Below, in pieces: positions 1 through 30,883 of a DNA stretch of 64,000 nucleotides (within the stretch, counting starts at the first letter, position 1; each line of letters opens with the position of its first letter). Location: NCBI RefSeq assembly GCF_000019805.1, contig NC_010525.1:434001-498000 (forward strand), read 5' to 3'. Under the pieces are notes generated by a model. The model searched no databases. It was not told the DNA's origin and saw only the letters and a program-made list of their open reading frames with translations. Both the position numbers and the translations under genes were made by a program. Source of the stretch: Pyrobaculum neutrophilum V24Sta (GTDB lineage Archaea; Thermoproteota; Thermoprotei; Thermoproteales; Thermoproteaceae).

Positions 1-537
1 CGGATGCTGAAACGGCCCGTAGTTGTTACAAGGCCTAACAATCCTAAACCTAACCCCATACGTCCTCCCATACGCCTGCACCAGCAGGTCCCCAGCGGCC
101 TTAGAGGCGGAGTAGGGGCTACTGGGCCTCATAGGCCAAGACTCGTCCGCCTCGCCGCCGCCTGCGAGATCCCCATACACCTCGTCCGTAGAGATGTGGA
201 CATAGAGAAAGCCAAGCCTCCGCGCCGCCTCCAGAACCGAATACACCCCCCAGACGTTAGTCGTAAGAAAAGGCGCCGGGTCGTTAATAGAGCGGTCCAC
301 GTGCGTCTCCGCCGCAAAGTTAACCACCACATCCGGCCTAAACCGCGACAAGACGTAGAAGAGGAGCTCGAAATTCGCCACGTCCCCCCTCACAAACTCC
401 ACCTCCACCCCCCTAAGGTTCTCGAGACGCCCCGCATACGTCAGCTTATCGTAGACAAGCACCTCGCCGCGGCCCGCCACATGCCTCACGAAGTTACTCC
501 CCATAAACCCAGCCCCTCCGATGACCACCACCCTCAT
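1..537 (-). CDS. rmlB: dTDP-glucose 4,6-dehydratase, 3' end cut by window edge
   Basis: Reading the minus strand from an ATG at 537 gives 179 codons with no stop before the window edge, so the C-terminus is missing. The protein opens with a Rossmann nucleotide-binding motif (GGAGFMGSN). It then has the extended-SDR signature STDEVYG and the catalytic YSASK (Tyr-x3-Lys), and it ends in the RPCNNYGPFQHP stretch typical of RmlB. The enzyme converts dTDP-glucose to dTDP-4-keto-6-deoxyglucose, the second step of dTDP-rhamnose synthesis. The ATG overlaps the stop of the upstream pyrophosphorylase gene as ATGA, so the two are probably translationally coupled and act in succession. Confidence 0.93.
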   Translation of the reverse strand, partial: MRVVVIGGAGFMGSNFVRHVAGRGEVLVYDKLTYAGRLENLRGVEVEFVRGDVANFELLFYVLSRFRPDVVVNFAAETHVDRSINDPAPFLTTNVWGVYSVLEAARRLGFLYVHISTDEVYGDLAGGGEADESWPMRPSSPYSASKAAGDLLVQAYGRTYGVRFRIVRPCNNYGPFQHP

Positions 538-1592
538 AGCTCCACCCGGCTAAAGTCCGAGATTATAAGCCTTGCCTCCCCCCTAAGATCCCGCCGCGAC
601 CTCACCACGCTACGCCTACCCAACACGCTGTCCACAAGCCTAAGCCCGCCCACCTCCACCTCCGCCTCGCTGAGAAGAAGAGACCGCGACGCGCCTCCCG
701 ACGCCAGGCGCGCCCCCGACTCCAGCGACACGTAGTGCTCCACCACCGCCCCCCGCCCCACGTACGCCCCCGGCCCCACGTAAGCCGGGCCGAACACCCT
801 CCCCTCAACCACGGCCCCCTTTTCCACGACCACCCGCCCCAGCACCTCCCCCCGGACCTCCCCCTCCACCCTCGCCCCCGCGTGGTCAAGGAGAAGATAC
901 ACCGCCTCCAGAAGGCCCTCCGGCGTCCCCACGTCCTTCCACCAGCCGTCAACGAAGTCAAACCCCACCCTCCTCCCCCGGTCGATAAACCACTGGATGA
1001 GATCCGTCACCTCGTACTCCCCCCTCCACGACGGCTTAAGCGACGAGAAAGCCCTCGCCACGTCCTCCGGATCCCTAAACATATACACGCCGACCACCGC
1101 CAAGTCCGAAATCGGCTCCCTAGGCTTCTCCACCAGCTTAACCACCCGGCCGTCCCTAAGGACGGCCACCCCAAACCGGCTCGGGTCGGGCACCCTCGCC
1201 AGGAGGATGTAGACGTCGAAATCCCCCTCCAAAAAGGCACGCACGTGGCGCTTGATGCCCCCCGCCAAGATGTTATCCCCCAGATAAACCACAAAGGGGC
1301 CCTTTAACTCGGGCAACGCCAGGCTGATGGCGTGGGCGATCCCCAGCCGGCGCTCCTGCCAGAAGTAGCGCACCCGCACCCCCAGGCGAGAGCCGTCCCC
1401 CAGATGCTCCTGAATCAGATGCCCCAGATACCCCACAACCACCCCCACCTCCGAAACCCCAGCCTCAGCAAGGTGGACGATGGGGTATTCGATCATCGCC
1501 CTACCCAGAAGCGGAATGAGGTGCTTCGGAGTAGAAAAAGTAAACGGCCTAAGACGCGAGCCCTCACCCCCGGCAAGAACAAGTCCGAACAT
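534..1592 (-). CDS. rmlA: Glucose-1-phosphate thymidylyltransferase, long archaeal form
   Basis: This 352-residue nucleotidyltransferase starts with the signature LAGGEGSRLRPFT followed by TPKHLIPLLG. It has the sugar-phosphate-site stretch VYLGDN near residue 105 and a C-terminal region (about 240-352) of short hydrophobic repeats resembling a left-handed beta helix. That layout fits archaeal long-form RmlA, which makes dTDP-glucose from glucose-1-phosphate and dTTP. The next gene is RmlB, supporting the substrate call, although UTP use cannot be excluded by eye. The start ATG lies just after the stop of the upstream GT2 gene. GC content is high, unlike that neighbour. Confidence 0.9.
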   Translation of the reverse strand: MFGLVLAGGEGSRLRPFTFSTPKHLIPLLGRAMIEYPIVHLAEAGVSEVGVVVGYLGHLIQEHLGDGSRLGVRVRYFWQERRLGIAHAISLALPELKGPFVVYLGDNILAGGIKRHVRAFLEGDFDVYILLARVPDPSRFGVAVLRDGRVVKLVEKPREPISDLAVVGVYMFRDPEDVARAFSSLKPSWRGEYEVTDLIQWFIDRGRRVGFDFVDGWWKDVGTPEGLLEAVYLLLDHAGARVEGEVRGEVLGRVVVEKGAVVEGRVFGPAYVGPGAYVGRGAVVEHYVSLESGARLASGGASRSLLLSEAEVEVGGLRLVDSVLGRRSVVRSRRDLRGEARLIISDFSRVEL

Positions 1593-1593
1593 G

Positions 1594-2580
1594 CTACTTA
1601 GGACTTTTCAAAAAATATTTAAGCGCGAAATGAGCAACTTTCCGTCTCCCAAGAATAGGTATGAGTAATAATGCAATGAATGACCTAGGTGTTGGATATT
1701 GATTCATAAATATACCCTTAAGAAGTCTAGATATTAATCTATAATACGATATATTATATACCCTTCTACATGTGAAAATAGTGTTAAATATATAGACAGG
1801 TATAGCGTTACTAAAGTAAAATTTTAATATCAATTTTCTTAGGTTATTGTCATGAATTTCCTTTAAAAGCAAATCTAGATCTAATGAATATCTATTAAGA
1901 GTACATATGATCTTATTCATAGTTGTTAAATCACCGTTTTGTAATTGAGAATTGCCAGCACCAATTCTATAAAATGTCAATCTATCAGGGATATGCTTAA
2001 CTCTTCCTAACGATAGCGATGTTATAAATAGTGTAAAATCTAATAATAAATCTATATTAACAAATAAATCTTTATATTCATAAAAAACTTCTTTTTTTAT
2101 TAACATAGAGGAAGGATTATGATGTATTGCAGGAAATTTCTTAAATATCTTAGATGCGTTAAATTTATTTATCGTGAGTTCAACCTGTGGTTGACCTATC
2201 TCATAGGAATGTACCAACGATCCATCCTTGATAATGTTTCCATTCACATCGATATACACCTGCTTATGATGTAACGCTACTGTGCCGCCTTCTTTAAACG
2301 CCTTCTCCGCTATCTTTAGTTTGTCTTCGTGAAATATATCATCGTCTTCTAAAAATGCAATGATATCACTATCAAGAGCTCTTATTCCCTCTGCCACCAT
2401 CTCCCCATATTTTTCAGCTTTGCTTTCAACTATATACACAGGATAACTCTTTACCTTTTCTGCATCGTCAACAACGACCACAACCTCGTCTGCCTTTCTT
2501 GTCTGCTTCAAAACTGACTCAATAGCTTGCGGCAGAAAATGATAACGCCTATACGCCGAAATAATAACCCCTATCTTCAT
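1594..2580 (-). CDS. GT2 family glycosyltransferase, AT-rich
   Basis: This 328-residue protein has a GT-A fold. The N-terminus IGVIISAYRRYHFLPQAIESV is a GT2 start, and FLEDDDIFH near residue 74 carries the DxD metal/nucleotide motif. I chose the ATG at 2580 because it overlaps the previous stop as ATGA and begins exactly at the GT2 fold; the upstream in-frame extension is antisense-like, GC-rich sequence. It probably adds one sugar to a lipid-linked glycan at the membrane's inner face. Base composition is much more AT-rich than the genes on either side. A GC-rich homologue along its whole length is encoded at 29817-30815, so this copy looks imported. Confidence 0.85.
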   Translation of the reverse strand: MKIGVIISAYRRYHFLPQAIESVLKQTRKADEVVVVVDDAEKVKSYPVYIVESKAEKYGEMVAEGIRALDSDIIAFLEDDDIFHEDKLKIAEKAFKEGGTVALHHKQVYIDVNGNIIKDGSLVHSYEIGQPQVELTINKFNASKIFKKFPAIHHNPSSMLIKKEVFYEYKDLFVNIDLLLDFTLFITSLSLGRVKHIPDRLTFYRIGAGNSQLQNGDLTTMNKIICTLNRYSLDLDLLLKEIHDNNLRKLILKFYFSNAIPVYIFNTIFTCRRVYNISYYRLISRLLKGIFMNQYPTPRSFIALLLIPILGRRKVAHFALKYFLKSPK

Positions 2581-3929
2581 TGTATCTCGCCCAGTTTTAT
2601 CTTTTCTATCTTTTCCGCGGTTTGTTTTGCGTTGGTGTATACCTTGTCCATGTTCCAGTAGTGCCAAGCGCCCCATCTCCCGGCGGTGAATATGCCCACC
2701 TCCTCGAGCCACCTCTGTACAACCTCGCGGGCCTCCCGGTGGCCTCTGGTGTAGACAGGGTAGCCGAAGGGGTGTAGCCAAGCCTCAGTAAACAACACCC
2801 TCCTGCCCTCGAGGATCCCCAGTCTCTCAAAGCCCTCCAGCACCTCCCCCTTTATCTTCTCCAGATCCACCGGCCTCCCCTTGGGGATAGTCACCTCGGC
2901 GATAACCGCAGACCTCCCAGGCGGGGCGTTGGCCGGGCTGTAGTTAGAGATCCACGCATAGCGGTGGAAGACCACACCCCTATCTGGCACATACACCCAG
3001 TGCTGATCAGGCGCAGGCCCCTCCAGCGCCACCCCCACCACAGCCACGGCGTTCCAGTCGAGCCGACCCACCGCCCTATAAACCTCCTCAGGCGGCGTGG
3101 GGCTCGCCACCGCCTCCACAAGCCTAGGCAGAGGAATAGTGGCCACCACCACCTCTGCCTCATACCGCCCGTTAACCACCCACCTCCCCCCGACCCTCCT
3201 CAACTCCCTAACCTCCACCCCCCACGCCACCTCAGACCCAGACGCAAGCGCCCTCTTCAACGCCCCATCGTATAGAGCCTGTATGCCGCCAGACGCCGGG
3301 TAGTAGAAGACGCTCTGCTCTCTATAGCCCACAGTCTCCACACCCGCGGCGCTCCTAGCCACATCCCTCCAGTCAGGCACAGGCAGCCGACCCGGGATGT
3401 AGACCCAGTCCACGTCGATCTCCTCAAGAGGCCTCTTCCAAATCTTCTCGTTGTAGGGAGCAAGGTAGTTGTCGGCAAGCCACCTGCCGAAAAAGCCGTA
3501 GACCCACTCCCTCAAATTCGAAGGCCTCCACTCCCCAGACCTCCCCATCCAAGTCTCCATAAACGACACCAAAGCCTCAGCCCTATCGCCCGGCTCCAAA
3601 ACCCAAAGCCCATTCTCAAAGGGATAAGGCACAAACCTACCCCTAAAATAGACAAAAGCCCTCCTCACCCCCCTCACAACACCATCGACAAGAGAAAGAA
3701 GACCAGAGAGGGCCTCCCCATCTCTGGAATAGATAATATGCGTACCTCCTATATCAAAAGCGAATCCATGAATTATTTCTGTTCTTAACAATCCCCCCCT
3801 TCTATCGTACGTTGATTTTTCCAAGACTAAACACCCCCTAAGATTTCCAGCAATAAGAACGCCAGTAAACCCCCCACCAAGGATGATACACCTCACAACA
3901 CCGAAAAATTCCAAAGAGTTAATAAGCAT
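2577..3929 (-). CDS. UDP-galactopyranose mutase-like / protoporphyrinogen oxidase-like flavoprotein
   Basis: The 450-residue protein has an N-terminal dinucleotide-binding motif (IILGGGFTG, residues 14-22), a conserved region DIGGTHIIYS typical of UGM-like flavoproteins, and a C-terminal FAD-contact segment FTAGRWGAWHYWNMD. Its place in a glycan cluster favours a nucleotide-sugar or lipid-sugar flavoenzyme such as a mutase. A role in heme synthesis is less likely. ATG 3929 follows the upstream stop by 14 nt; a GTG at 3896 would put the FAD motif at the very N-terminus and is also plausible. Roughly the first 65 codons are AT-rich while the rest is GC-rich, suggesting a recombination joint inside the gene. 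Confidence 0.7.
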   Translation of the reverse strand: MLINSLEFFGVVRCIILGGGFTGVLIAGNLRGCLVLEKSTYDRRGGLLRTEIIHGFAFDIGGTHIIYSRDGEALSGLLSLVDGVVRGVRRAFVYFRGRFVPYPFENGLWVLEPGDRAEALVSFMETWMGRSGEWRPSNLREWVYGFFGRWLADNYLAPYNEKIWKRPLEEIDVDWVYIPGRLPVPDWRDVARSAAGVETVGYREQSVFYYPASGGIQALYDGALKRALASGSEVAWGVEVRELRRVGGRWVVNGRYEAEVVVATIPLPRLVEAVASPTPPEEVYRAVGRLDWNAVAVVGVALEGPAPDQHWVYVPDRGVVFHRYAWISNYSPANAPPGRSAVIAEVTIPKGRPVDLEKIKGEVLEGFERLGILEGRRVLFTEAWLHPFGYPVYTRGHREAREVVQRWLEEVGIFTAGRWGAWHYWNMDKVYTNAKQTAEKIEKIKLGEIQ

Positions 3930-3943
3930 TACTACGACACTAC

Positions 3944-6241
3944 TTAGTGAGACTCATTTAGTATATGGATGCGATAGCCCTTTACAGCATAGAGCGTCTT
4001 AACATCAGTAAAATTAACTAAAGTACATCCATTGCTGTAGCTTATGAGAGATTCAATAGATAGAAGAAACGGATATCGATGTTCACCATAATAATAAAAC
4101 TGATATAAAGGAAGCTCATAAATTTTACCATTAATAAGACATTTATAAGATACTAAAAAACCAAAATTAGGTATATAAATCAGATATCTATATCCTTGTG
4201 CTAATATAGACGTAAGATTAACTGTAGTTGAATTCAAACGTACTTTACCAGCAAGCTCTACACTACCGATTTTAGTTAAATTTCCATATGTTTTATTATC
4301 TAAAACAAGAATAATCTTTACATTGTTATAACGATTCTGTATTTTTAAAAGTTCAATATAGAAATCAGAACCCAAATACGGAGTAGGTAGCACCGGAGTC
4401 CTTATGCCCATTATTTTTAAATTCTTACTGTAGTTCGATATAATATATACATATATTTTATATCCATTAAGATCATATATATATATTGGATTAAAGTATT
4501 TAGAAAAATTAACATATTGGTCGCCGGCGATCAAGATGCTGGGCAAGTATATTGCTGTATTCTTGTAATAGAATGGAATTGAATCATCCATTATGGTAAC
4601 AGGCGTATAATAAGGAGTACCGAGTTTAAGCCCGAGTAGTATGTCTGACACAAAAGGAGCATCAACTAAAGCATGAACCCAAGGCGTTACAGTCAATTCG
4701 TTTATTGCTTTCGAAGAAAACGAAGAGAGCACATAATTCATGCATGTAGCTGTCATACATGGACCAACATCGGCCCAAGGATTACGGTAGTAATATCCCC
4801 AATAGAGTGTCCAAAATACAAAAACCAAAAAAGAAATAATTAAAAAGAAATATTTTACTTTTTCAGACTTATCGATAAATAAAACAACGGGAAGAAAAGA
4901 AATAAAAATAAAAGCCGGAACAACAAATGAGCGGGACAAAACTTCGGTATATCTACCGACTAGACCAAGAGGTTGACCTACACTTACCATATAATTATAA
5001 AACAAAAAGGAAAATAAAACAACAACAACACTAAGTAAAGTAGGAATAAATAGTAATTTATATATAAAATTATCGTTCTTAGAATACATAAGATATATAG
5101 GAAACACGTAAAAGTGGAAAAGCAATAAAGATCTTAAATCTAAACAATATGGATTAAAATATATTCTAAATGGAAACAATGTGATAAATATTATGAAAAT
5201 TGCTGTGAATAAGATATAAAACTTTTTAGTTATTTTCTTTAATATAAACACCAATATATAGATTCCTAATAAATATATTATCAAAAAAACAAATATAATA
5301 GGTATTGAAAGTGAAAAAACAGCAAGCGGATATAAAATTTGCCTTCCAAATAAGAGGTACAGTAAAAATATCATTAGTAAGGATAATGAAATAAATTTGA
5401 TATAATCTATAACATTTAATACTTTATTAAATAAAATAATTATTAGTACAATTACTACAAAAATCATATATAACCCTTCTTGAATATGAACTAATAATCC
5501 TAGTGTAAATACTAATGCTACATAAAATAAATTCCTTAATTCTTTTAAGTTTTTTACTAAAACTGCTGATAAAACTAATAAATCACTAATATTTTTTAAT
5601 AAATTTGGGTTTATTGTTATAATTCTGGGCAAAATAGAATATTCAAAAGTGTAAATCATTGTGCCATTAACGTTTCTAAAATCATGTATTAGCATAAATA
5701 AAAATAACAAAGATGTTAAATTTGGAATATAAATCAAAATAAATGCTGATATATATACATGCTTTAAATTTAATGTTTTTAATAAAATTATAATAATCAA
5801 TGTAAATACATATAATGAAATAATTAAATTAAACCAATAACTTGACAAAATATTAATATTAAACATCTTAGATATTTCTATAACTAATATACCACTAAGT
5901 GAAAAAAACCCATTTGGCTTAAGTAATGCTGCACCGATATATCTTATATCATCACCTAGAGGAAGGCTAGACCAAAAAAGGAAAAAATATAAGGGAGAAA
6001 TTAGTATTAAACCGATAAAATAGTCAAAAATACTAATTTTTAATTCTAAAGATGAAGAAGTCAACCAAAAAATTAGTATAAAAATAAAACTAAACAATAT
6101 CCATCGAATCCATATATTCAGATTAATGAAGTACATGACCAAAGAACCAATTAATCCAGCAATAATATACGTCAAAAAAATTACAAAGCCTAGATTAATT
6201 AATTTATTTATTATAATTCTGTGTGTAGACGAGGGTATCAT
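3944..6241 (-). CDS. Polytopic membrane protein, GT-C-like glycosyltransferase (inferred), AT-rich
   Basis: A very hydrophobic protein of about 765 residues with a dozen or so predicted membrane helices up to about residue 520, then a mostly hydrophilic C-terminal domain, presumably outside the cell. An Asp-Asp pair (LPLGDDIRYIG, residues 97-98) sits in the first long loop after the early helices, where GT-C enzymes keep their acidic catalytic motif. This suggests a polyprenol-phosphate-sugar-dependent transferase, but no family is recognised with certainty. I chose ATG 6241 because codons upstream of it differ in composition and lack hydrophobic pattern. The gene is strongly AT-rich. A decayed relative lies immediately upstream (6307-6987). 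Confidence 0.65.
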   Translation of the reverse strand: MIPSSTHRIIINKLINLGFVIFLTYIIAGLIGSLVMYFINLNIWIRWILFSFIFILIFWLTSSSLELKISIFDYFIGLILISPLYFFLFWSSLPLGDDIRYIGAALLKPNGFFSLSGILVIEISKMFNINILSSYWFNLIISLYVFTLIIIILLKTLNLKHVYISAFILIYIPNLTSLLFLFMLIHDFRNVNGTMIYTFEYSILPRIITINPNLLKNISDLLVLSAVLVKNLKELRNLFYVALVFTLGLLVHIQEGLYMIFVVIVLIIILFNKVLNVIDYIKFISLSLLMIFLLYLLFGRQILYPLAVFSLSIPIIFVFLIIYLLGIYILVFILKKITKKFYILFTAIFIIFITLFPFRIYFNPYCLDLRSLLLFHFYVFPIYLMYSKNDNFIYKLLFIPTLLSVVVVLFSFLFYNYMVSVGQPLGLVGRYTEVLSRSFVVPAFIFISFLPVVLFIDKSEKVKYFFLIISFLVFVFWTLYWGYYYRNPWADVGPCMTATCMNYVLSSFSSKAINELTVTPWVHALVDAPFVSDILLGLKLGTPYYTPVTIMDDSIPFYYKNTAIYLPSILIAGDQYVNFSKYFNPIYIYDLNGYKIYVYIISNYSKNLKIMGIRTPVLPTPYLGSDFYIELLKIQNRYNNVKIILVLDNKTYGNLTKIGSVELAGKVRLNSTTVNLTSILAQGYRYLIYIPNFGFLVSYKCLINGKIYELPLYQFYYYGEHRYPFLLSIESLISYSNGCTLVNFTDVKTLYAVKGYRIHILNESH

Positions 6242-6306
6242 GGGAGCGGGAACAGGTAGCCTTTTATTTTTTCGCGTTATTATCAGCGCAGCTCCTCTGG
6301 CTACGT

Positions 6307-6987
6307 CTATTCCTCTTGTGGTGTTGTATATCGGTTGACAGTGGGGTTGTCGTCTCTTCTTAGGTAGCACGTGAGTATCACCGTGGCTAAAGCATCAAGG
6401 GGGTGGTATAGAAACGCTAGCCAAAAGGAAAGACCCACATATGCAAGACCCGGTGCCCCCCTCCTAGCCAGAAGGGCCGTAAGCGGCAAGAAACAGTATT
6501 AAGGAAAGGTTCGGTATGAAGATTGCAAGAAAGGTTCCCAAGTATACATGTCTAACGTCCATTGATCTAAGGATCGCAATTATCGTCAGTGTAAATGTAA
6601 ATATTGTCAAAAAGACACTAACCCAATAGGCCTCTAAAACCCCCACACCTAGTTTAGATATGGATATCACAGACACGCCGACTAGCGAGAAGAACCCGTT
6701 TGGCTTGAGTTCAGCCGACCCAATATAGCGTAGATCATCAACAAGCGGCAACCTAGAAAAAACAGTAGAGAGATAACTGGAAGAGAGAGGACGAGACTAA
6801 TTAGGAAATCACGCCAGACAAGTTTAACATCTACGACATGTGCCAGATATATGTACATCGCCGGAGTCTAAAGAAATACGAGCAATAAGACTAGGTACTT
6901 CCCTACAATATAGTAAACTATTGATAACAATGAAAAAGAAAAGATAAACGACAATAATATCTTATATATGGAATCAGCCCTCAACAT
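6307..6987 (-). pseudogene. Decayed, GC-richer paralogue of the adjacent GT-C-like membrane protein
   Basis: Stitching reading frames together gives a protein similar to the intact neighbour at 3944-6241. The N-terminal helices run from an ATG at 6987 to an in-frame TAG at 6868-6870. The frame then continues through a DFLISLVLSLPVISLL-like helix to an A-run at 6757-6762 (a T-run on the coding strand), where one base is missing. The next frame encodes SRLPLVDDLRYIGSAELKPN, matching LPLGDDIRYIGAALLKPN of the neighbour. Near 6475 an internal deletion joins this to a segment resembling the neighbour's YVALVFTLGLLVH helix, and the remainder is lost. The ATG overlaps the end of the upstream GT2 gene, as in a former operon. 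Confidence 0.8.
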
Positions 6988-8068
6988 CCTTAGTCACTCT
7001 TGTAATTTCTGATCTAACGTCATTAAGCAAGCTTTTCATGGACAGATATTTCATCCATGAAGTTTTTACTACAGGGACCCCCCCTGCTCTTCTGCTACCA
7101 ACGGAGGCGGTAAATCCCTCGTATAGAGCTCTGACTAGATGTCTCAGAACCTCAAGGTACTCCCTAATGCCCCACCTCGGCGTAGGTACACCTGGAGCGG
7201 TAATTTCTATATATCTATCTAAAGCCGAGATCTTCTGGTCGAAAACCCGAAGAGGATAGGAGACTATCCAGAGCAGAAATTTTAGAAGCGGTAATGCGCC
7301 CAAGTACTCTCTTATGATAAGTAGTCTATTCCTATAGGACAGAAATGTCACCTTATAGACTGATCTACCCGTGCTAGCACTTCGGTAGTGTCTGCCGATC
7401 ACTAGAGGTATAAGAAGAGAAGGAAATCTCGCCCTCCACGCCCTCAGAGAAAACTCCACATCTTCGTAATACAAGAAATACTTGGGGTCAAACCAACCTA
7501 TAGTCTCAACAACATTTCTATGTACTATCTGAAACGCCCCATCTGCATAACTGATCGGAGTGAGGCGGCGTATTTCCCGTGGAGTTAAAGCCGCCAGGCG
7601 CAGGCCCCAAGTTCCTCCACTGTCGTCGATGAAGTATCCACCGTAATCTATTAGCCCATCGTTTCCGTTTAATAGCAACGGCGCCGCAATGAACCCCTTG
7701 GGATAGGCCTTCTCCAGCGCTCTGAGATAGGAGAGCAGTTCGCCGATCTTTTGGGGAAAGAGCTCAATATCGTTATTGCTACAGACGTAATAGTCGTACT
7801 CCAGCCCCATTAATCTTGTATATCTGTAGGCGAGGCTACACGCGGCCCCGTAGCCGAGATTCTTAGGGAGGGCCAAGAACTTCAGCATCCCGCCGTAGCG
7901 TTGCGAAAGTACGCTGTAAGATCCGTCAGTTGACCCATTATCAACTAGCCACACATCTACGTCCTGGTCCACGACATCTACAAATGTATCAAGAAAATTG
8001 AATACCCTCTGGCCCATAGTTGACACTGAATTATAATTTACAACAAATATGGCCATAGATTTTTTCAT
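6974..8068 (-). CDS. GT2 family glycosyltransferase (rhamnosyltransferase-like)
   Basis: The 364-residue protein begins MKKSMAIFVVNYNSVS and has the NGSTDGS motif near residue 48 and SNNDIEL (a DxD-like motif) near residue 98. A later FLYYEDVEFSLRAW segment near residue 195 is characteristic of WbbL-like GT2 enzymes that transfer rhamnose or another deoxysugar. The last hundred residues are basic and probably contact the membrane surface. ATG 8068 overlaps the preceding GT4 stop as ATGA. The nucleotide-sugar genes in this cluster could supply dTDP-rhamnose or GDP-deoxysugars, but the actual donor is not visible in the sequence. Confidence 0.85.
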   Translation of the reverse strand: MKKSMAIFVVNYNSVSTMGQRVFNFLDTFVDVVDQDVDVWLVDNGSTDGSYSVLSQRYGGMLKFLALPKNLGYGAACSLAYRYTRLMGLEYDYYVCSNNDIELFPQKIGELLSYLRALEKAYPKGFIAAPLLLNGNDGLIDYGGYFIDDSGGTWGLRLAALTPREIRRLTPISYADGAFQIVHRNVVETIGWFDPKYFLYYEDVEFSLRAWRARFPSLLIPLVIGRHYRSASTGRSVYKVTFLSYRNRLLIIREYLGALPLLKFLLWIVSYPLRVFDQKISALDRYIEITAPGVPTPRWGIREYLEVLRHLVRALYEGFTASVGSRRAGGVPVVKTSWMKYLSMKSLLNDVRSEITRVTKDVEG

Positions 8069-9165
8069 ATTTTTTCAATTAATTTATAATATAATTTTTC
8101 AAATTGTTTAATAATATTTTCTATGTCAAATCTCTGCGCCAGATTTCTTAGCCTAGACTCATTGTACTTCTGCAGATCGAATTCCAGTATTGTCTTGGCC
8201 AACGTCATTACGTCGTCCTTGGGGATAACGATGCCTGTTACGTCGGGTATGGCTAGCTCATTCAATGGGGGGATGTCGTAGGTGATTACGGGGGTTCCCA
8301 TGGCTATTGCCTCGAGTATGGCTATCCCGAAGCCCTCTGGGTAGCCTAGGTGTATTAAGGCGGCGGCTCTGGACATGAGGTCAAGTTTCTCCTCCTCTGT
8401 GATGCGGCCTAGGAGGTGGACTGTTCGCTCCAGGCCTAGCCGCTTGATTAGTTTCTCGAGTTCAGCCCTCTGGGGGCCGTCTCCGACTATCAACAGTCTG
8501 TAGTTTGGCTTTACCTCTTTTACTATTCTGAAGGCGGCTATTGCGTGGTCGTAGTGCTTTCTAGGCTCTAGGCGCCCCACCATGAGGTAGAGCCCCTCTT
8601 CTGGCCTCCTTGTGTACTTCCTATATTTTTCTGCGTATATCCCAGGTGGTATGACGTAGATTGGGTTACGGAGTAGCCTTAGTCTCTCCACCTGTCTTTT
8701 TACTGATCTACTGAGCACGTGTATGGCAGTGCATGTGGAGTTTGTCTCTGCTAGTTGTACAAGGGGGAGCCCCACGCGAGGCGCTACTCCAGTAATGACG
8801 TCCGGACTTTCAAAGTGGTATATGCTACAGACCTTTGGTGTTTTGTTGGGGGATAGCAGTGGCAGTAGGTTTGGAAAATGGCTATCGGTGTGGACTACGT
8901 CGTAGTGGTCGCCCATATCTCTGAGGATGCTTGTGGCTTTCCGGAGGTAGCGGATTACGTTGAGCGGCTGCATATATGGGAGCAGGCCGCCACGGTAGAT
9001 CCTTAGGTCGACTACTTTGATATTCGGCGGAGTTCTGTCGTAGGTTGCGCCTGTTATAACCGCCACCTCGTGGCCTCTCTGAGCCATTCCCTCGGCTATC
9101 TGCATTAGGAAACGCGGCCCCCCCGTGTGGTATGTGATGTAGTTGGTGAAGTACGCTATCTTCAT
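8065..9165 (-). CDS. GT4 family glycosyltransferase
   Basis: From the ATG at 9165 the protein is 366 residues with a GT-B fold. The N-terminus MKIAYFTNYITYHTGGP is the GT4 glycine-rich start. In the C-terminal domain, LYLMVGRLEPRKHYDHAI and the donor-site motif PEGFGIAILEAIAMGTPVI (E-x7-E) are clear. A longer in-frame extension upstream is rejected because it lies entirely inside the previous gene and is arginine- and proline-rich. The start overlaps the preceding stop as ATGA. Likely role: addition of a hexose to a lipid-linked glycan in the cytoplasm. Donor and acceptor are unknown. Confidence 0.9.
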   Translation of the reverse strand: MKIAYFTNYITYHTGGPRFLMQIAEGMAQRGHEVAVITGATYDRTPPNIKVVDLRIYRGGLLPYMQPLNVIRYLRKATSILRDMGDHYDVVHTDSHFPNLLPLLSPNKTPKVCSIYHFESPDVITGVAPRVGLPLVQLAETNSTCTAIHVLSRSVKRQVERLRLLRNPIYVIPPGIYAEKYRKYTRRPEEGLYLMVGRLEPRKHYDHAIAAFRIVKEVKPNYRLLIVGDGPQRAELEKLIKRLGLERTVHLLGRITEEEKLDLMSRAAALIHLGYPEGFGIAILEAIAMGTPVITYDIPPLNELAIPDVTGIVIPKDDVMTLAKTILEFDLQKYNESRLRNLAQRFDIENIIKQFEKLYYKLIEKI

Positions 9166-10199
9166 AATAGCCTGATGTACTGTTGGACGACGTTGGATAT
9201 GTGGTACTGCATGAGTTTTTCCGGCTCCAGGGGGCTGGGCCTCGCCTCCTCTATTGCCTTGACGACTTCGGCCGGAGTCTTTGCCACATAGCCGTAGTTG
9301 AGGTTTTCTACTATCTCTCTCGCGGCGTTGTAACCCTCCGCGTCTAGGACAATGGGGTAGGCGCCTAGGGCTATGGCCTCCAGCGTGGCTATGCTGAAGC
9401 CTTCTGTCTTTGACAGGTTTAGGTAGATTTTCGCCTGCGCCAGCAGGCGCCGCTTGTCTTCTTCGGCTACGTTGCGCCGCCATTCCACCTCGTGGCGCAT
9501 TCTCTTTATCTCCGCCGCCAACCTATCTCTCAGGGGACCGTCGCCGATTATCAGAACCCGTAACTTTTCGCCTACCGCATTTAGTACCTCTATCAACACG
9601 TCTAGCCCCTTGTATGGAACTAATCTCGCTACGTAGGCGAGGTCGTACGTCTTATTGTGTGACCTGTAAACTAGATAATGGTCTAAGTTTAACCCTACTG
9701 GTATAATTGCCGTATTTCTATTGTATCTAAATACTTGGTTTGCAACAATCTTTGTTGCTGTTATTACTAGGGGCGCTCGCTTTATAATCGCCTTTTCTCC
9801 CCACATCACCATCCTGCCTAGGATCCGGCCATAGTAGTCTTTCCACTTGTCCCCCCAGAATTCCCAGTACGTCAGTATTATTTTTTCTCGTGGAAGGAGG
9901 TAGGCCGGGAGGTAAGGCACTGTTACGTCTATTTTGTCGCATCTCAGATTTTTTGCCTTTTTTGCCGCGGCGTATGAGAATTTTACTGTGTTTATAATGT
10001 CGCGTCTTCCTTCTCTGTCGTATAGGGGTGGCGGGGGGCCTACTGTGGCGGTGGGGATGTCTGTAGGCCCCCAGTCGTAGGTTATGTAAGTCACTTTGTA
10101 GCCCATCTTCGACAGTTCCTTGGCAAATAGGTAGTGTCTAAGTTCTGCGCCTCCGTATGTGTATGGCCATAGGTTAGTGTGTATATAGCATATATGCAT
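9162..10199 (-). CDS. GT4 family glycosyltransferase
   Basis: A 345-residue GT-B glycosyltransferase. MHICYIHTNLWPYTYGGAEL is the canonical GT4 opening with the acceptor-site GGAE. YVARLVPYKGLDVLIEVL marks the start of the second domain, and KTEGFSIATLEAIALGAYPI is the donor E-x7-E motif. I place the start at ATG 10199, directly before the fold; the 16 upstream in-frame residues are not GT-like. The next gene starts by ATGA overlap, so at least these two GT4 genes are probably co-translated. Base composition is close to balanced, between the AT-rich and GC-rich extremes of the cluster. Confidence 0.9.
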   Translation of the reverse strand: MHICYIHTNLWPYTYGGAELRHYLFAKELSKMGYKVTYITYDWGPTDIPTATVGPPPPLYDREGRRDIINTVKFSYAAAKKAKNLRCDKIDVTVPYLPAYLLPREKIILTYWEFWGDKWKDYYGRILGRMVMWGEKAIIKRAPLVITATKIVANQVFRYNRNTAIIPVGLNLDHYLVYRSHNKTYDLAYVARLVPYKGLDVLIEVLNAVGEKLRVLIIGDGPLRDRLAAEIKRMRHEVEWRRNVAEEDKRRLLAQAKIYLNLSKTEGFSIATLEAIALGAYPIVLDAEGYNAAREIVENLNYGYVAKTPAEVVKAIEEARPSPLEPEKLMQYHISNVVQQYIRLL

Positions 10200-10231
10200 T
10201 GTTGCATCTTCAGATGGTTGCCGGTCCTCGG

Positions 10232-10657
10232 CTATGGAGTTGTGCATATCTTGCGCGTGCTTAGTCGCATTATCCTGGTTATTCTGTATTCCATGCGTTT
10301 GAGGTATAGTGCTAGGAGGGCTATTAGGATTGTGTTTATGCCGGCGGCTGTGAGGGCTGTGGCGGCTAGGGCTTTCACGTATGTTTTAACGCCAGTGAGG
10401 TACATGGCGGCTGAGTAGGCGCCTAGGGCAAGCCCCGGCGCTGTGAGGACTGCATCGTCTAGTTTTAGTTCTTTGATCTCTTTTTCTAGCTCCTGTAGGC
10501 TTCCGTCGGTGCTTCCGTTGTCTATGAGTACTAGTTTTAGGCTTTTTAGGTCGCTTAGTCTGTCGAGGGTTTTTAGGAGGAGTTTTTCGATTGGGAGTAT
10601 GTGGTTTGAGTTGTAGTTGACTACTATAGCTAGGATGTCGTATTTACTTCCTGACAT
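10232..10657 (-). CDS. Truncated GT2-like protein with a C-terminal membrane segment
   Basis: The 141-residue product begins like a GT2 enzyme (ILAIVVNYNSNHILPIEKLL, then VLIDNGSTDGSLQELEKEI). It stops matching at about residue 72, before the DxD motif that binds metal and nucleotide sugar. The rest is hydrophobic (roughly residues 75-120, one or two helices) with a basic tail. It therefore cannot be a normal transferase. It may be a deletion product joining the front of a GT2 gene to the membrane tail of another, or a small regulatory protein. The start overlaps the end of the upstream GT2 gene by 14 nt. Confidence 0.5.
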   Translation of the reverse strand: MSGSKYDILAIVVNYNSNHILPIEKLLLKTLDRLSDLKSLKLVLIDNGSTDGSLQELEKEIKELKLDDAVLTAPGLALGAYSAAMYLTGVKTYVKALAATALTAAGINTILIALLALYLKRMEYRITRIMRLSTRKICTTP

Positions 10658-11732
10658 GCGTGGCGAGGGTTGCTGCTATCATTTGTGTAGCTATGACTGG
10701 CAGGGTTAGGGCTAGTGTTGTGTAGATTAGTCTCATGTATCTGGTTACGTTGAAGAGGTTTATTGCGTGTATTAGGAGTGCTGTGCTTGCGGTGTAGAGT
10801 GCTACTGCGGCGAGTATTGTTATTTTGGGGCTTTTTGTTATTGTGGTCCATATGATCGCCCATGCTAGGTTTAGTCCTTGTATGAGCATGTTTGCTTTAC
10901 TTGATTTTTCGTGGTAGATCACCTTGCTCGTGACCTCTGTGGTTCTTAGACGTCTCAGGGCGTTGTTTATCTCTATTTCTACTCCGTAGGCTGGGTCGAA
11001 TTCTCTGTCTAGGAGCTCGAGAGCTTTTCTGGTGAATGCTCTGTATCCGTTGAATGGGTCTCCCATTGGCTTTATGAGTATTGCGTGCAATAAGGCTAGG
11101 GCTTTGTAGCCTATTTTTCTTATGGTTGGCATCTTTGTATTGGTGAATCGGTTGGCTACGACGTGATCTGCCTGGCCTTGGATTAGCGGCTGTAGCATCC
11201 TGGGTATGTCGTGCGGGTTGTGTTGGCCGTCTGCGTCGATTAAGATGGCGTATTGAGCGTCGGCTTTGAGGGCGGCTTTTATTAGTGTTGCTACGGCGGC
11301 TCCCTTGCCCATGTTTCTGGGGTGTCTAATCACGAGGGCGCCGGCTTCCTGAGCCTCCCGTGCTGTATTGTCCTTTGAGCCGTCGTCTACAACTATTACT
11401 AGGTCTACGTATCTCTTTGTAGCTGTAACTACCTGTCCTATCCGGCCCTCTTCGTTGTAGGCAGGTATGAGGGCTACGGTTTTTGCTTTTGGTATGGGCG
11501 GCATCTCCGGCGGGATGTAGCTTGTCCTCGTCGATGTGTATACCGCAATTGCCGCGGACAGGAGCATGTTTGAAGCCACATAAGCTAGGAAGGCGCTTGC
11601 GGCTGTCAACGTGTCTATTATCCTTGACTCGTTAAACTTGTCAATTGTGATAAGTATCAACGCCATTGTCACAACCAACAAAACCAACCCCGGAGACGCA
11701 AGATAGACAAGGGGATACTTTCTAACCGACAT
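10644..11732 (-). CDS. Polyprenol-phosphate hexose synthase-like GT2 (AglD/DPM1 type)
   Basis: The 362-residue protein has two N-terminal membrane helices (about residues 9-65), then a GT2 domain starting KTVALIPAYNEEGRIGQVV, VVDDGSKDN and LIDADGQHNPHDIP (DxD). An NRFTNTKMP segment is typical of dolichyl-phosphate mannose or glucose synthases. Two further helices close the protein (about 290-355). Enzymes of this family load a sugar onto polyprenyl phosphate for use by GT-C enzymes outside the membrane, which fits the GT-C-like protein in this cluster. A possible TATA element near 11755 could give this gene its own transcript. Confidence 0.88.
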   Translation of the reverse strand: MSVRKYPLVYLASPGLVLLVVTMALILITIDKFNESRIIDTLTAASAFLAYVASNMLLSAAIAVYTSTRTSYIPPEMPPIPKAKTVALIPAYNEEGRIGQVVTATKRYVDLVIVVDDGSKDNTAREAQEAGALVIRHPRNMGKGAAVATLIKAALKADAQYAILIDADGQHNPHDIPRMLQPLIQGQADHVVANRFTNTKMPTIRKIGYKALALLHAILIKPMGDPFNGYRAFTRKALELLDREFDPAYGVEIEINNALRRLRTTEVTSKVIYHEKSSKANMLIQGLNLAWAIIWTTITKSPKITILAAVALYTASTALLIHAINLFNVTRYMRLIYTTLALTLPVIATQMIAATLATHVRK

Positions 11733-11752: not shown

Positions 11753-12688
11753 TTAACCTAACTCACTCACCAACTCCGCCGCCGCCCTTCTCACCGTTTC
11801 GAGGCTGTTCAGCCTGGGTCTCCAGCCGGTGAGCTCCACTATCTTTTTGATGGAGAGGAGCATGTACTTCACATCCCCCGGCCAGCCCCTCCCGTCTGGG
11901 GTCGCCGGCCTCAGCTTGATCTGTGGGGAGAGGCCCATGGCCTCAGCCACGGCCCTCGCGATGTCTAAGACAGAGGCCACGTCGAAGTTGCCCACGTTTA
12001 GCGCTAGGTACGGCTCCCCCACCTCCTCGAACTTTCTCCAGGCTCTCAGCGTTGCCTCCACAGCCTCTTCGACGTGTAGGTAGCTTTTCTTCTGTGTGCC
12101 GTCTCCTAGAACCTCCAGCTCCTCTGGCTTCTTCCTCAGCTTCATGAGGAAGTCGTAAAGCGCCCCGTGTCTCAGCCTCGGCCCCACCACGTTGGCGTAC
12201 CTCAGCGCCAGGCACCTAACGCCGTAAAGCCTGGCGTATGTGGCACACATCACCTCGCCAGCCGCCTTAGCCGTGCCGTAGACCGAAACCGGCTCCAGCG
12301 GGTAATCCTCCGGAGTCGGCATAACCCTAGCGTCTCCATACACCGTCGAAGAAGAGGCAAACACGACCATCCTAACGCCAGAGACGCGGGCCCACTCCAA
12401 CACATTAAACGTAGCCACCACATTCTCCTCAAAATGGACACGGGGCTCCGTAGTGGAAACCCTAACCTCGGGGTTCGCGGCGAAGTGGAAGACGGCGTCC
12501 GCCCTCAGCCCAACGCCCCAGCCAGGCTCCTTCAGATCCCGCCTTATGAACTCGGCGCGGGGATTCACGTTCTCCCACCTGCCGGAGGAGAGGTTGTCCA
12601 CTACGACGACCTCGTACCCCTCCTCCACAAGCCGATCCACCAGGTGGCTACCGATGAAGCCGGCTCCGCCGGTTACCAACACTCTCAT
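11753..12688 (-). CDS. UDP-glucose 4-epimerase-like NAD-dependent epimerase/dehydratase
   Basis: A 311-residue extended SDR enzyme: MRVLVTGGAGFIGSHLVDRL (NAD motif), FHFAANPEVRVS, VFASSSTVYGD, and the catalytic YGTAKAAGE (Tyr-x3-Lys). The closest functional class is archaeal GalE, interconverting UDP-glucose and UDP-galactose or their N-acetyl forms. ATG 12688 overlaps the previous stop as ATGA; a start 10 codons upstream would lie inside the preceding gene. It presumably supplies a UDP-sugar to the transferases downstream and perhaps to the UGM-like protein. Confidence 0.88.
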   Translation of the reverse strand: MRVLVTGGAGFIGSHLVDRLVEEGYEVVVVDNLSSGRWENVNPRAEFIRRDLKEPGWGVGLRADAVFHFAANPEVRVSTTEPRVHFEENVVATFNVLEWARVSGVRMVVFASSSTVYGDARVMPTPEDYPLEPVSVYGTAKAAGEVMCATYARLYGVRCLALRYANVVGPRLRHGALYDFLMKLRKKPEELEVLGDGTQKKSYLHVEEAVEATLRAWRKFEEVGEPYLALNVGNFDVASVLDIARAVAEAMGLSPQIKLRPATPDGRGWPGDVKYMLLSIKKIVELTGWRPRLNSLETVRRAAAELVSELG

Positions 12689-13035
12689 GGCCACATTGGC
12701 GTGATCTTCGGCCTCCACCTCCCGGGGGTGTTCAATATCTGTAGGCCTAGCGCGAGTGCCGTTTCCTCGTCTAGCTCGACCCCCCTCTGCCTGGCCGCGG
12801 CTCTCCCCAGGGCTATTGCCTTTTGGCGGAGGGGGGTCACGAGGTTCATGACCTCGTTTATGGCCTTCTGGAGGGCGGCGAGGAGGGTCTGCGACTTTAT
12901 CCTCCCGCCCCTCCTCAGGTAGTGGATGGTGGCGTCTATCAGCGCCCTGGCGGTGGGGCTTACAAAACGCCAGACGCCTAGGCGCAGCGCTCTTGCCCTC
13001 AGCGCGACGAGCCTCAGCCCCACCGCCAGCGGCAT
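12685..13035 (-). CDS. Small basic protein of unknown function in the sugar cluster
   Basis: A 116-residue protein starting MPLAVGLRLVALRARAL. It is rich in Arg, Ala and Leu, probably all-helical, with no membrane segment or known motif. A TATA-like element at 13055-13069 (minus strand) lies about 26 nt before the ATG, overlapping the end of the upstream dehydratase gene. The gene may therefore have its own leaderless transcript. Its stop overlaps the epimerase ATG as ATGA. I do not recognise the family. Conserved spacing and the dedicated promoter argue that it is real, possibly an accessory or regulatory protein of the cluster. Confidence 0.65.
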   Translation of the reverse strand: MPLAVGLRLVALRARALRLGVWRFVSPTARALIDATIHYLRRGGRIKSQTLLAALQKAINEVMNLVTPLRQKAIALGRAAARQRGVELDEETALALGLQILNTPGRWRPKITPMWP

Positions 13036-16993: not shown

Positions 16994-17155
16994 GTTTGAT
17001 ACAGCCGGGTGGCGTGGATGAGGGGGGGCGTAGCGTGCCGGCCCGTCTGGCGGTGGGGGCCGCCGGGGGGTGCTCGGTGGGGGCGCCTTTGTGGGGGGTG
17101 CGGCGGCCGTCGAGGCGTGTCAGATGTGGGGGAAGCTGTCGGGGGCCGCCGGCTT

Positions 17156-17701
17156 TCATGAGTCTCTGTCCTGACCGGCTTGTTCTACTATGTCAAGTAG
17201 CTCCCGTGGGGTTATGGGCTTGATCTCCTGCGCTACTTTTTCTGCGGCGTGTAGCAGGCGCGTGTCTGCTGTCACCAGGAATATGTGATGTGCACCGTGG
17301 GTTGCCAAGGCAGCGATTGCCAGTACTTCTTTGTCATCGTCGTCCATTAGGCTGTCTATCCTGCCCCAGAGCTGTGGGTGGCTTTGTTTGATGCGTTCCG
17401 CGGCTGTTCGTGCGATTACACACAATTTATCTTTACCCCTTCCAGCGGCTTCTGTTTGCAGTGCCACGCTTTGGTGTCGGCCGCCTGTAGTAGTTCTTTT
17501 GCCGCTCTTTTTATGGAGGATTGTAGTTTCGGCAACGGCTCGTGTAGTGTTCTTCCAAGGACAGTGTAGGCTGTCTTTATGTACTTTTTTGACATGTGCC
17601 ACACCACGTCGAGGTGTGGAAGAGTGTCTCCGAGTTTCCGTATTGCGTTTTTCTTCAGGCTTGTCGCCGCAGGGTGTGAGCGCAGAGTGGTCTAGCACCA
17701 A
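17156..17701 (-). pseudogene. PIN-domain protein broken by two frameshifts
   Basis: Three frames combine into one PIN-like protein. The first piece is VLDHSALTPCGD, the usual PIN opening with its first catalytic Asp. After a shift near 17670-17690 the sequence continues ATSLKKNAIRKLGDTLPHLDVVW..KYIKTAYTVLGR. After a second shift near 17425-17440 it continues IARTAAERI and ends MDDDDKEVLAIAALATHGAHHIFLVTADTRLLHAA, which carries the later acidic residues (DDDDKE, TAD). PIN domains are Mg-dependent RNases, often VapC toxins. The gene starts a few nucleotides after the stop of a broken AAA ATPase, so the two formed a unit. Decay or sequencing error would explain the shifts. Confidence 0.65.
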
Positions 17702-18727: not shown

Positions 18728-19021
18728 GAATATGCCTTAAATCTATATCTCTATATGGGCTCGCCGCCGTCTGCGCTCCGCCCGTCGACGTGGCGCTGTC
18801 GGCGAGGTGGGTGTAGCAGGCGCCGGAGGCGGCGCCTTAAACAAGCCGCCGCTGGTTGCTGGGCGTAGGCTTGTAGATCTGCGGAGGGCCTATTGCGTCG
18901 GCAACCCCGGCCCTAGCGTTGGGCTGTGGCGGGGCGTGCGCGTGGGAGGCGGGTGGGGGGTGGGGAGGCCGCCTTGGGGGGCTTTGGGTTTAGGTTTAAA
19001 AACGATTGTGTGGTGTCGGTT

Positions 19022-19453
19022 GTGGCCTTGATCGTTGAAAGCCCTGTGAGGAGGGGCTATGTGATGAGGGGCGGCCTTTCGCAGATGTTTCTGGAGGTTG
19101 ACAGTAAGTACCTCAGCGAGCAGTATAGCATTGGGTTGTTTGTCGAGGCGTGGGCTGAGGGCGAGGTTTTGGGCGTTAGGAGGGTTGGCGGCGTTCTCTC
19201 GGCTGAGGAGGAGGGGGCCTTTAGGGAGCACGTCGTTGGGAGGAGGGTTAGGCTTTACGTAATTCCTGGCGTTTTCTCTGGCGTAGACCAGCTGTATTTC
19301 GACGAGAGCTCGTGGTCTATCTTTCGGGACGCTGGGGTTTTTCCCGACGAATATCAGGTCGTGGTTAGGCTGGAGAAAGTGGTTGTGAAACCTGACGGCG
19401 CGGTGAGGGAGCTGGCTCTGTACCCCTATAGGGATGTAGTTGCTAAGCGGTGA
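19022..19453 (+). CDS. Hypothetical protein upstream of a PaREP1-like gene
   Basis: A 143-residue acidic protein, VALIVESPVRRGYVMRG at the N-terminus, with alternating beta-like hydrophobic segments and no membrane helix. I chose GTG 19022 because a TATA box (GTTTAAAAA, 18994-19002) lies about 25 nt upstream, giving a leaderless transcript; a longer frame to 18926 would start before the TATA box. ATG 19064 is an alternative. Its stop overlaps the next start as GTGA, so the two proteins are probably made together. No family recognised. Confidence 0.6.
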   Translation: MALIVESPVRRGYVMRGGLSQMFLEVDSKYLSEQYSIGLFVEAWAEGEVLGVRRVGGVLSAEEEGAFREHVVGRRVRLYVIPGVFSGVDQLYFDESSWSIFRDAGVFPDEYQVVVRLEKVVVKPDGAVRELALYPYRDVVAKR

Positions 19454-19887
19454 ACGCCGTTCTTCAGGAGGTTGAGAGGAGGCTGGCGCTTGTGGAGAAG
19501 TATTATGAAAACTACCGGAGTTATCTGGCGCGTGGAGCCTACAGTAAGGCGTCGGAGCACCTGTGGGGCATAGCGAATAACTTGGCTTCGTTGTTGTCTC
19601 TGCTGAAGGGGGGTAGGCCGATCACTAGACACAGCGACTTGAGGCGTTTTCTAGACGTCTTAGTCCGCGAGCTGGCGGCTAGAGAGGGGGGCGGGGAGGT
19701 TGTTGAGGCGTTTAAAGAGGGCGTCTTGGCGCTGGAGATCCTCCACGCCAACTTTTTCCACGACTTTCTAGAGGAGCGCCAGTTTGAGGAGCTTAGGATA
19801 AAGGCCGAGCGGTTGCTCAAAATTCTCGAGGAGGAGCTCTACAGACTTCTCCAAGCGCAGTTCGGCGGCAGCGGAGGGACGCGCTGA
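19450..19887 (+). CDS. PaREP1/HEPN-like helical protein
   Basis: A 145-residue all-helical protein. The pattern YYENYRSYLARGAYSKASEHLWGIANNLASLLSL matches the N-terminal helices of PaREP1 family proteins, which are HEPN-like and expanded in Pyrobaculum. The C-terminal half (AFKEGVLALEILHANFFHDF..) gives two more amphipathic helices. No RX4-6H RNase motif is visible. The GTG start overlaps the preceding stop by 4 nt. PaREP1 function is not established; similarity to HEPN proteins suggests RNA- or toxin-related work. Confidence 0.65.
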   Translation: MNAVLQEVERRLALVEKYYENYRSYLARGAYSKASEHLWGIANNLASLLSLLKGGRPITRHSDLRRFLDVLVRELAAREGGGEVVEAFKEGVLALEILHANFFHDFLEERQFEELRIKAERLLKILEEELYRLLQAQFGGSGGTR

Positions 19888-20168
19888 CGCCTGGCGGAGT
19901 CCGCCGCAGCCGGCCGGAGTGCAGGCGGGCGTCGTAACGGGGCTAAAGATAATCGTTCGTTTTTAGCGTGGCTCTACGGCAGAGTGGAATAGGGCCGCGG
20001 CGGTTGTTTACAAGCCGCGTCCCCACGCCGACCTGGCCGTCTAGTTTGTCTCGGGGCGGCCGCCGCAGGTGCGCTTTTTAAGCTTCCCCGTGGTGGGGGG
20101 AAGCGCCCGGTTTGCCCGGTTGGCGTTTCTGGGTGTGGGGGCCGTCGGAGGGCTGGTGCTGGCGTCTG
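19888..20168. other. Intergenic region with one possible tiny membrane peptide
   Basis: This gap separates convergent genes. The only hint of coding is a plus-strand GTG at 20090 followed by 30 codons giving a hydrophobic peptide (LAFLGVGAVGGLVLASA). A TATA-like GCTTTTTAAG at 20073-20082 lies only about 12 nt before it, too close for the usual spacing. I regard the peptide as unproven. Nothing else recognisable. Confidence 0.3.
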
Positions 20169-29033: not shown

Positions 29034-29822
29034 ATGTTCCGCGGGTTGTCGGCCACCGCCAGGTCGATGGGGCTGGGCGCCGTGTTTAGGGAGGCGGCCC
29101 GGAGGGCCTTGGGCGTGTCCTACACGTGGCGTGGGGTTAGGGTGGACTCCACTGCTCTATTTCGTCTGCTGAGGCGGCTGGCCTCGGCTGGCCACGTGGT
29201 GTGGGGGGAGGGGGGCTATGTCTACGTGCGGCCTAGGTGGACGAGGTACGTCCTGAGGGTGCCGCGGGGGGACGCCGGCCTGCTGACGGTCCTCCTCGAG
29301 GATCTGGAGGGGATGTACCGGGCGTCGGCGAGGCGTGTGCTCGACGTGGGGGCCTACATCGGCGAGACGGCCCTCCTCTTCGCAGAGAGGGGGGCCGAGA
29401 GGGTCTACGCCTACGAGCCCGTGCCCAAGTTCTTCTCTGTCCTCAGAGACGTGGTGGAGTACAACGGCCTCGGGGGCGTCGTCGAGATGTACAACCTGGG
29501 CGTGGGAGGGGGCGGGCGCATACGCGTGGGGCTGGAGGGGCCTGGCACGGGGCTCCGCGAGGGGGATCTGGAGATCGCCACCATGCCCTGGGGGGAGGTG
29601 CTGAGGCGGCACGGCGTCGACCTGGCTAAGGTGGACTGCGAGGGCTGCGAGTGGTGGCTCATGGCCCAGCCCTGTGAGGTGCTGAGGTCCGTCCCCCAGT
29701 GGCTTGTGGAGATCCACGGCCCGGCGGCGCCCCTCATCGAGAAGTTCTCGGGTTGCGGGTTTTCTGGGGTGAAGGTGGCGGATTTGGCTTATTTGATTTC
29801 TCTCTACCGCCTCTCCCTATGA
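29034..29822 (+). CDS. FkbM family SAM-dependent methyltransferase
   Basis: A 262-residue protein. RVLDVGAYIGETALLFAERGA is SAM motif I, VYAYEPVPKFF is motif II, and LAKVDCEGCEWWLM is the FkbM signature. FkbM enzymes methylate hydroxyls of sugars or polyketides, and here the surroundings are glycan genes. I start at ATG 29034, about 26 nt after the shared TATA block; ATG 29013 lies too close to it for a leaderless transcript. The stop overlaps the convergent GT2 gene by 6 bp. Confidence 0.85.
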   Translation: MFRGLSATARSMGLGAVFREAARRALGVSYTWRGVRVDSTALFRLLRRLASAGHVVWGEGGYVYVRPRWTRYVLRVPRGDAGLLTVLLEDLEGMYRASARRVLDVGAYIGETALLFAERGAERVYAYEPVPKFFSVLRDVVEYNGLGGVVEMYNLGVGGGGRIRVGLEGPGTGLREGDLEIATMPWGEVLRRHGVDLAKVDCEGCEWWLMAQPCEVLRSVPQWLVEIHGPAAPLIEKFSGCGFSGVKVADLAYLISLYRLSL

Positions 29823-30815: not shown

Positions 30816-30883
30816 CGGGAGCGGGCGGCTTTTAGGCTTTACTGAGCCCGTCAACTTTTTAATGGGGGTCGGCAGTCGCCTGC

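Follow-up and report, generated by a model that had tools for sequence, protein, structure and literature searches.

A disrupted stub beside its intact AT-rich homologue in a glycan-assembly gene run of Pyrobaculum neutrophilum

In Pyrobaculum neutrophilum V24Sta, an intact AT-rich gene for a large membrane protein adjoins the truncated and disrupted remains of a homologue. The two copies differ in synonymous composition and diverged under selection. This pair is most likely an unusually clear example of the ordinary turnover of surface-glycan genes, with the stub left behind as one version displaced the other. Our main reading is that the AT-rich version displaced an earlier version in situ within a mosaic glycan operon and removed most of it, and we put the probability of this reading at about one half. 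On this reading, the locus would show gene turnover in a crenarchaeal glycan island at an intermediate stage, with the displaced stub and the displacing gene still adjoining.

Organisation of the glycan-assembly gene run

We analysed a stretch of 64,000 nucleotides (the window) from a single-contig genome of 1,769,823 bp that is 99.98% complete. The window is 59% GC overall, and its own genes served as the baseline for composition. We use GC4 for GC at fourfold-degenerate sites. Between about 12.7 and 0.5 kb, the window holds a run of glycan-assembly genes, every one of them on the minus strand. In order, the run comprises a sugar epimerase, a polyprenyl-phosphate-sugar-synthase-like GT2, two GT4, a GT2, the stub, the intact membrane protein, a UGM/PRK07208-like oxidoreductase, an AT-rich GT2 and a sugar nucleotidyltransferase. 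The features discussed below are:

8065..11732, minus strand: remaining intermediate-GC glycan block (two GT4, a truncated-looking GT2 ORF and the polyprenyl-phosphate-sugar-synthase-like GT2)
6974..8068, minus strand: GT2 glycosyltransferase upstream of the stub; GC4 0.51, composition like the stub
6488..6987, minus strand: dead N-terminal stub of the homologue, located by tblastn, whole-genome search and frame-aware alignment
6868..6870, minus strand: in-frame TAG stop inside the stub, located by tblastn and frame-aware alignment
6757..6762, minus strand: homopolymer run at which the frame changes in the stub (six A on the plus strand, T6 on the coding strand)
6242..6487, minus strand: spacer, origin not detected; its 6307-6487 part is 53% GC; carries the A/T box AAAAAATAAAA
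3944..6241, minus strand: intact AT-rich gene; 765 aa, about 13 TM helices and a C-terminal domain of about 230 residues
2577..3929, minus strand: UGM/PRK07208-like FAD oxidoreductase directly downstream of the intact gene; AT-rich at its 5' end, GC-rich in the remainder
1594..2580, minus strand: AT-rich GT2 after the UGM; GC-rich paralogue at 29817-30854
534..1592, minus strand: sugar nucleotidyltransferase, the last gene of the run; native composition, GC4 0.80

Within the upstream block, a 141-aa ORF (10232-10657) has a GT2-like start (NYNS...DNGSTDGS) that is followed at once by a membrane segment, much as deletion of the central part of a GT2 would leave it. It is possibly another remnant in the same cluster.

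A truncated homologue lies upstream of the intact gene

A preliminary description of this DNA had proposed an intact AT-rich ORF at 3944-6241 on the minus strand and a broken homologous copy upstream of it, and both are present. The ORF encodes 765 aa and is 26% GC. When we searched the 860 upstream bases with its product by tblastn, 49/101 residues were identical and 76/101 similar (E = 1e-32), and a search of the whole genome found the same two places (E = 5.9e-27). In a frame-aware alignment, positions 6966-6488 pair with residues 19-181 of the intact protein. Identity is 49% across 101 aa and falls to about 40% across 156 aa once the frames are corrected. The homology includes the pairing of LPLGDDIRYIG with LPLVDDLRYIG that had been pointed out at the outset.

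Two of the lesions named earlier are also there. One is the in-frame TAG at 6868-6870; the other is at 6757-6762, six consecutive A on the plus strand, where the alignment places one frameshift. Homology ends at 6488, at about residue 181 of 765, so that the N-terminal stub alone survives; the last three quarters of the gene, about 580 codons, are missing. With significant homology to the intact gene and disabling lesions (TAG, frameshift, truncation), the stub is a pseudogene. That the stub gene is actually intact and only appears broken through sequencing or assembly error is extremely improbable. The frameshift does fall in a six-base homopolymer, but the genome is a single contig at 99.98% completeness, and neither the TAG nor the loss of about 580 codons is likely to be a base-call error.

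The stub gene starts at ATG 6987-6985 and the upstream GT2 stops at 6976-6974. This overlap of 14 nt is an operon-like join, and the stub gene was therefore probably once the operon partner of the GT2 at 6974-8068.

The remaining lesion, an internal deletion near 6475 with homology resuming beyond it, did not hold up. The translation of 6483-6361 scores 39 at best against the intact protein, and 12 shuffled proteins score 30-53. Because homology past 6488 is not above that of shuffles, the internal deletion is better described as loss of the gene's last three quarters. The 246 bases at 6242-6487 gave no tblastn match to the intact protein, and no relatives of the stretch 6307-6487 were found in the family genomes. 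A 16-nt near-repeat (4384-4399 and 6361-6376, 88%) might have been what is left of the stub gene's C-terminal part. We rejected this idea: the translation flanking it is mismatched, and comparable chance repeats are present in the region.

The two copies diverged mostly as functional genes

Across 89 aligned codons, the copies agree at 54% of first, 76% of second and 38% of third codon-position bases, and 47/89 residues are identical. In neutral simulations run to the same base divergence (2000 runs per direction), a mean of 24-25 residues was shared and the maximum was 36. Neutral divergence would be expected to introduce 4.7-5.1 stops; the 89-codon stretch has none. For most of their divergence both copies were therefore functional, and the stub was lost as a gene only late. 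This divergence under purifying selection excludes a recent local duplication that has been decaying in place.

An older duplication would have to be of another kind: the copies would be ancient tandem paralogues in one operon, and a deletion together with point lesions would recently have destroyed one of them, with no transfer needed. Both copies did diverge under selection, and they lie in tandem on the same strand. However, copies in one genome should drift to similar synonymous composition, and these have GC4 of 0.11 and 0.44 (P = 1.2e-4); the genomes searched also yielded no relative carrying either copy. We consider this origin unlikely.

The stub retains an ORF of 95 aa (6464-6751) with a TTG start, which includes the conserved DD..RYIG...LKPNGFFSL segment. 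Its most conserved segment is stop-free where 4.7-5.1 stops would be expected if divergence had been neutral, as it would be if the ORF were expressed as a small membrane protein working with the intact protein. However, the absence of stops could just as well reflect recent death of the gene. The parent frame is also broken upstream, and the TAG separates the ORF from its natural start. We consider a working small protein very unlikely.

Both copies are compositionally atypical

GC4 in the intact gene is 0.20 overall and 0.11 (5/46) in the part homologous to the stub, significantly below the 0.44 (35/80) of the stub itself (P = 1.2e-4). The stub is not distinguishable from the upstream GT2 (GC4 0.51; P = 0.34) and differs sharply from three native genes with GC4 of 0.75-0.80 (P = 5e-9). 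Together with the upstream block it forms an intermediate stratum at GC4 0.36-0.58; 17 other genes of the window lie at 0.54-0.89, nearly all of them at 0.64 or above and the majority at 0.73-0.89. Both copies are compositionally foreign, and the stub belongs to an intermediate atypical block and is not a native GC-rich allele.

The preliminary description had read the pair as xenologous replacement, an imported AT-rich allele taking over from an older, GC-richer copy. Part of this stands: there is one intact and one dead homologue, they differ in synonymous composition, and they diverged as functional genes. The part that does not stand is the native status of the dead copy, which is set apart from native genes and matches the foreign-looking GT2. 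Calling it GC-richer is misleading, as the homologous stub is 38.6% GC in a window of 59% GC. The GC-richer part of 6307-6987 is the non-homologous stretch 6307-6487. An intact foreign gene beside a displaced native one is thus not what we observe. Composition contrast by itself misleads in such islands. Many variable island genes are shifted in composition, and finding an AT-rich gene next to one with more GC need not mean that the first was imported and the second is native. Since both copies look foreign, we infer the direction of replacement only from operon position. The stub, being atypical itself, need not be the older copy.

Evidence on the order of events

The UGM-like gene downstream bears on how the AT-rich gene came to its position. 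In its first 63 codons (3741-3929) GC4 is 9/28, compared with 130/194 in the rest (P = 6e-4), and this break, where the AT-rich stretch ends, is a possible exchange boundary. Residue identities to four relatives reveal no discordant ancestry between the 5' part and the rest. Four further genomes of the genus carry relatives of the UGM (47-54% identity). These relatives lie in glycosyltransferase clusters whose composition is often mixed. Some of these sister Pyrobaculum islands are mosaics of a UGM at 57-63% GC beside glycosyltransferases at 32-40% GC; at L020, for example, a UGM of 58% GC adjoins transferases of 32-40% GC.

The homology and lesions, the divergence under selection, the three GC4 strata, the 14-nt overlap of stub and GT2, the composition break in the UGM and the mosaic sister islands all argue for displacement in situ. 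Against it are the atypical composition of the stub, the concordant ancestry of the UGM, the low GC that the family of the run's AT-rich GT2 shows in other hosts, and a search that found no orthologues to polarise the event. If displacement did occur, the GT2 at 6974-8068 in the minus-strand glycan run would once have been followed directly by one version of the multi-TM protein. A second version, divergent and much richer in AT, would then have entered just upstream of the UGM-like gene. Either this entry or a later deletion would have cut the earlier gene down to its first ~180 codons, with the remaining three quarters lost, and the leftover stub would have acquired its stop and frameshift. 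The intact version, probably under its own promoter, would now do the job, plausibly a membrane-embedded glycan step.

The order may also have been the reverse, which we regard as possible but rather doubtful. The AT-rich gene would already have been beside the UGM, and the intermediate-GC block GT4-GT4-GT2-stub (6488-11732) would have arrived later, its left edge falling within the copy of the gene that it carried, so that the stub would be the ragged end of an import and not an older resident. This would fit the composition of the stub, which matches that of the block (GC4 0.44 and 0.51, P = 0.34), its overlap with the block's last gene and the abrupt stop of homology at 6488. However, the junction bears no mobile-element or repeat signature, and the intact gene is the most extreme in composition, which is usually read as the mark of the newer arrival.

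Predicted features of the intact protein

The intact protein has about 13 predicted TM segments followed by a C-terminal soluble part. Sequence searches of Pfam, NCBIfam and PDB gave no family match. The GT-C-like label that it had been given, and the accompanying claim of a changed surface glycan, are thus based on topology and gene neighbourhood and not on homology. An AlphaFold2 model, made from an input of 2 sequences only, had a mean pLDDT of 39 and a pTM of 0.26, too poor for a fold search to be meaningful.

When comparing the protein to GT-C enzymes of the AglB/STT3, PMT and ArnT type, we find many TM helices and a C-terminal soluble region in both, as well as a DD pair in an early non-membrane loop. 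In the intact protein this pair is at residues 97-98 and is conserved between the two Pyrobaculum copies. GT-C enzymes have an acidic catalytic motif in the first external loop; the DD pair sits after the third predicted helix and not the first, and the protein has no sequence match to any such family. Judging from the neighbouring genes, the protein plausibly carries out a membrane-embedded step in glycan assembly or transfer. The A/T box AAAAAATAAAA lies at about -31 to -21 from the ATG of the intact gene, the position of a TATA box, and is possibly an archaeal promoter for a leaderless mRNA.

Search for relatives of the two copies

No relatives of either copy were found in 19 family genomes or 398 phylum genomes, in 81 class genomes searched with a two-row profile, in pattern scans of GTDB contigs and viral contigs, or among plasmids. 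The protein family of the pair thus has no recorded relatives in the collections searched. One phylum match (E = 9e-4), which spans 83 residues with two internal stops, was taken as chance. We also weighed a possible remote homologue in a Sulfolobaceae-like genome, a 12-TM orphan protein of 827 aa (L046:3089-5572) encoded close to a GT2 relative, and set it aside: it forms a family of its own with no detectable similarity.

It had been suggested that orthologues of the pseudogene at the same locus in sister species, with the AT-rich form elsewhere, would support replacement. That comparison is uninformative, since the genomes searched contained no recognisable orthologue of either copy. As a long shot, the two copies might represent a new family of large membrane enzymes of glycan assembly in archaea, possibly of a divergent GT-C type. 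Such a family would circulate among hyperthermophiles as extremely AT-rich and intermediate-GC alleles that swap at one operon position as a surface-type switch.

Parallels to known gene displacement

Xenologous gene displacement in situ and the mosaic operons that go with it were reportedly described by Omelchenko et al. in 2003. The likeness to the Pyrobaculum pair is that a divergent homologue takes the place of the resident and the neighbours stay; in the Pyrobaculum pair, a remnant of the second version can still be seen. The Pyrobaculum case is unlike in that both versions look foreign by composition. As neither a donor nor orthologues of this pair were found, replacement cannot be shown by phylogeny.

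Strains of Haloferax exchange glycosylation genes, including by displacement of aglB (PMC5867893). There too, archaeal surface-glycan genes are replaced by transfer inside a glycosylation cluster. The Haloferax evidence consists of trees of intact orthologues (PMC5867893), whereas ours consists of a pseudogene and composition, in a crenarchaeon and in an orphan family. Displacement in situ and exchange of archaeal glycosylation genes are already established (PMC5867893 and the 2003 work cited there); what is new here is the visible stub and the orphan family, and no new kind of process is involved.

AT-rich genes and truncated copies in related islands

The AT-rich GT2 at 1594-2580 (GC4 0.29) has a native-like paralogue at 29817-30854 (GC4 0.75), with 40% identity over 323 aa. 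Both are intact, and they make up the second AT-rich/GC-rich homologue pair in the window. The best relatives of the AT-rich GT2 outside the genome fall in a family (f31) that appears to be Sulfolobaceae-like. They are AT-rich too, several having 23-28% GC and one being interrupted. Three of them (L046:9629-10681, L045:9333-10379 and L048:9172-10209) have 23-27% GC, below most neighbour genes at their own loci. The relative at L044:9837-10892, in a Sulfolobaceae-like genome of 2,225,959 bp, is split by a stop. Extreme AT-richness seems to be a property of this GT2 family. Because these relatives are AT-rich in other hosts as well, low GC can be a family trait and not the mark of a recent transfer. 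In part, then, low GC characterises these gene families and is not a clock.

Truncated copies also occur beside full-length ones in the glycan island of a sister species (L022), where a truncated second UGM and truncated glycosyltransferase pieces are present (12431-13006, 17147-17635 and 18780-19925). The UGM of L022 has a low-GC3 start (0.46 compared with 0.72).
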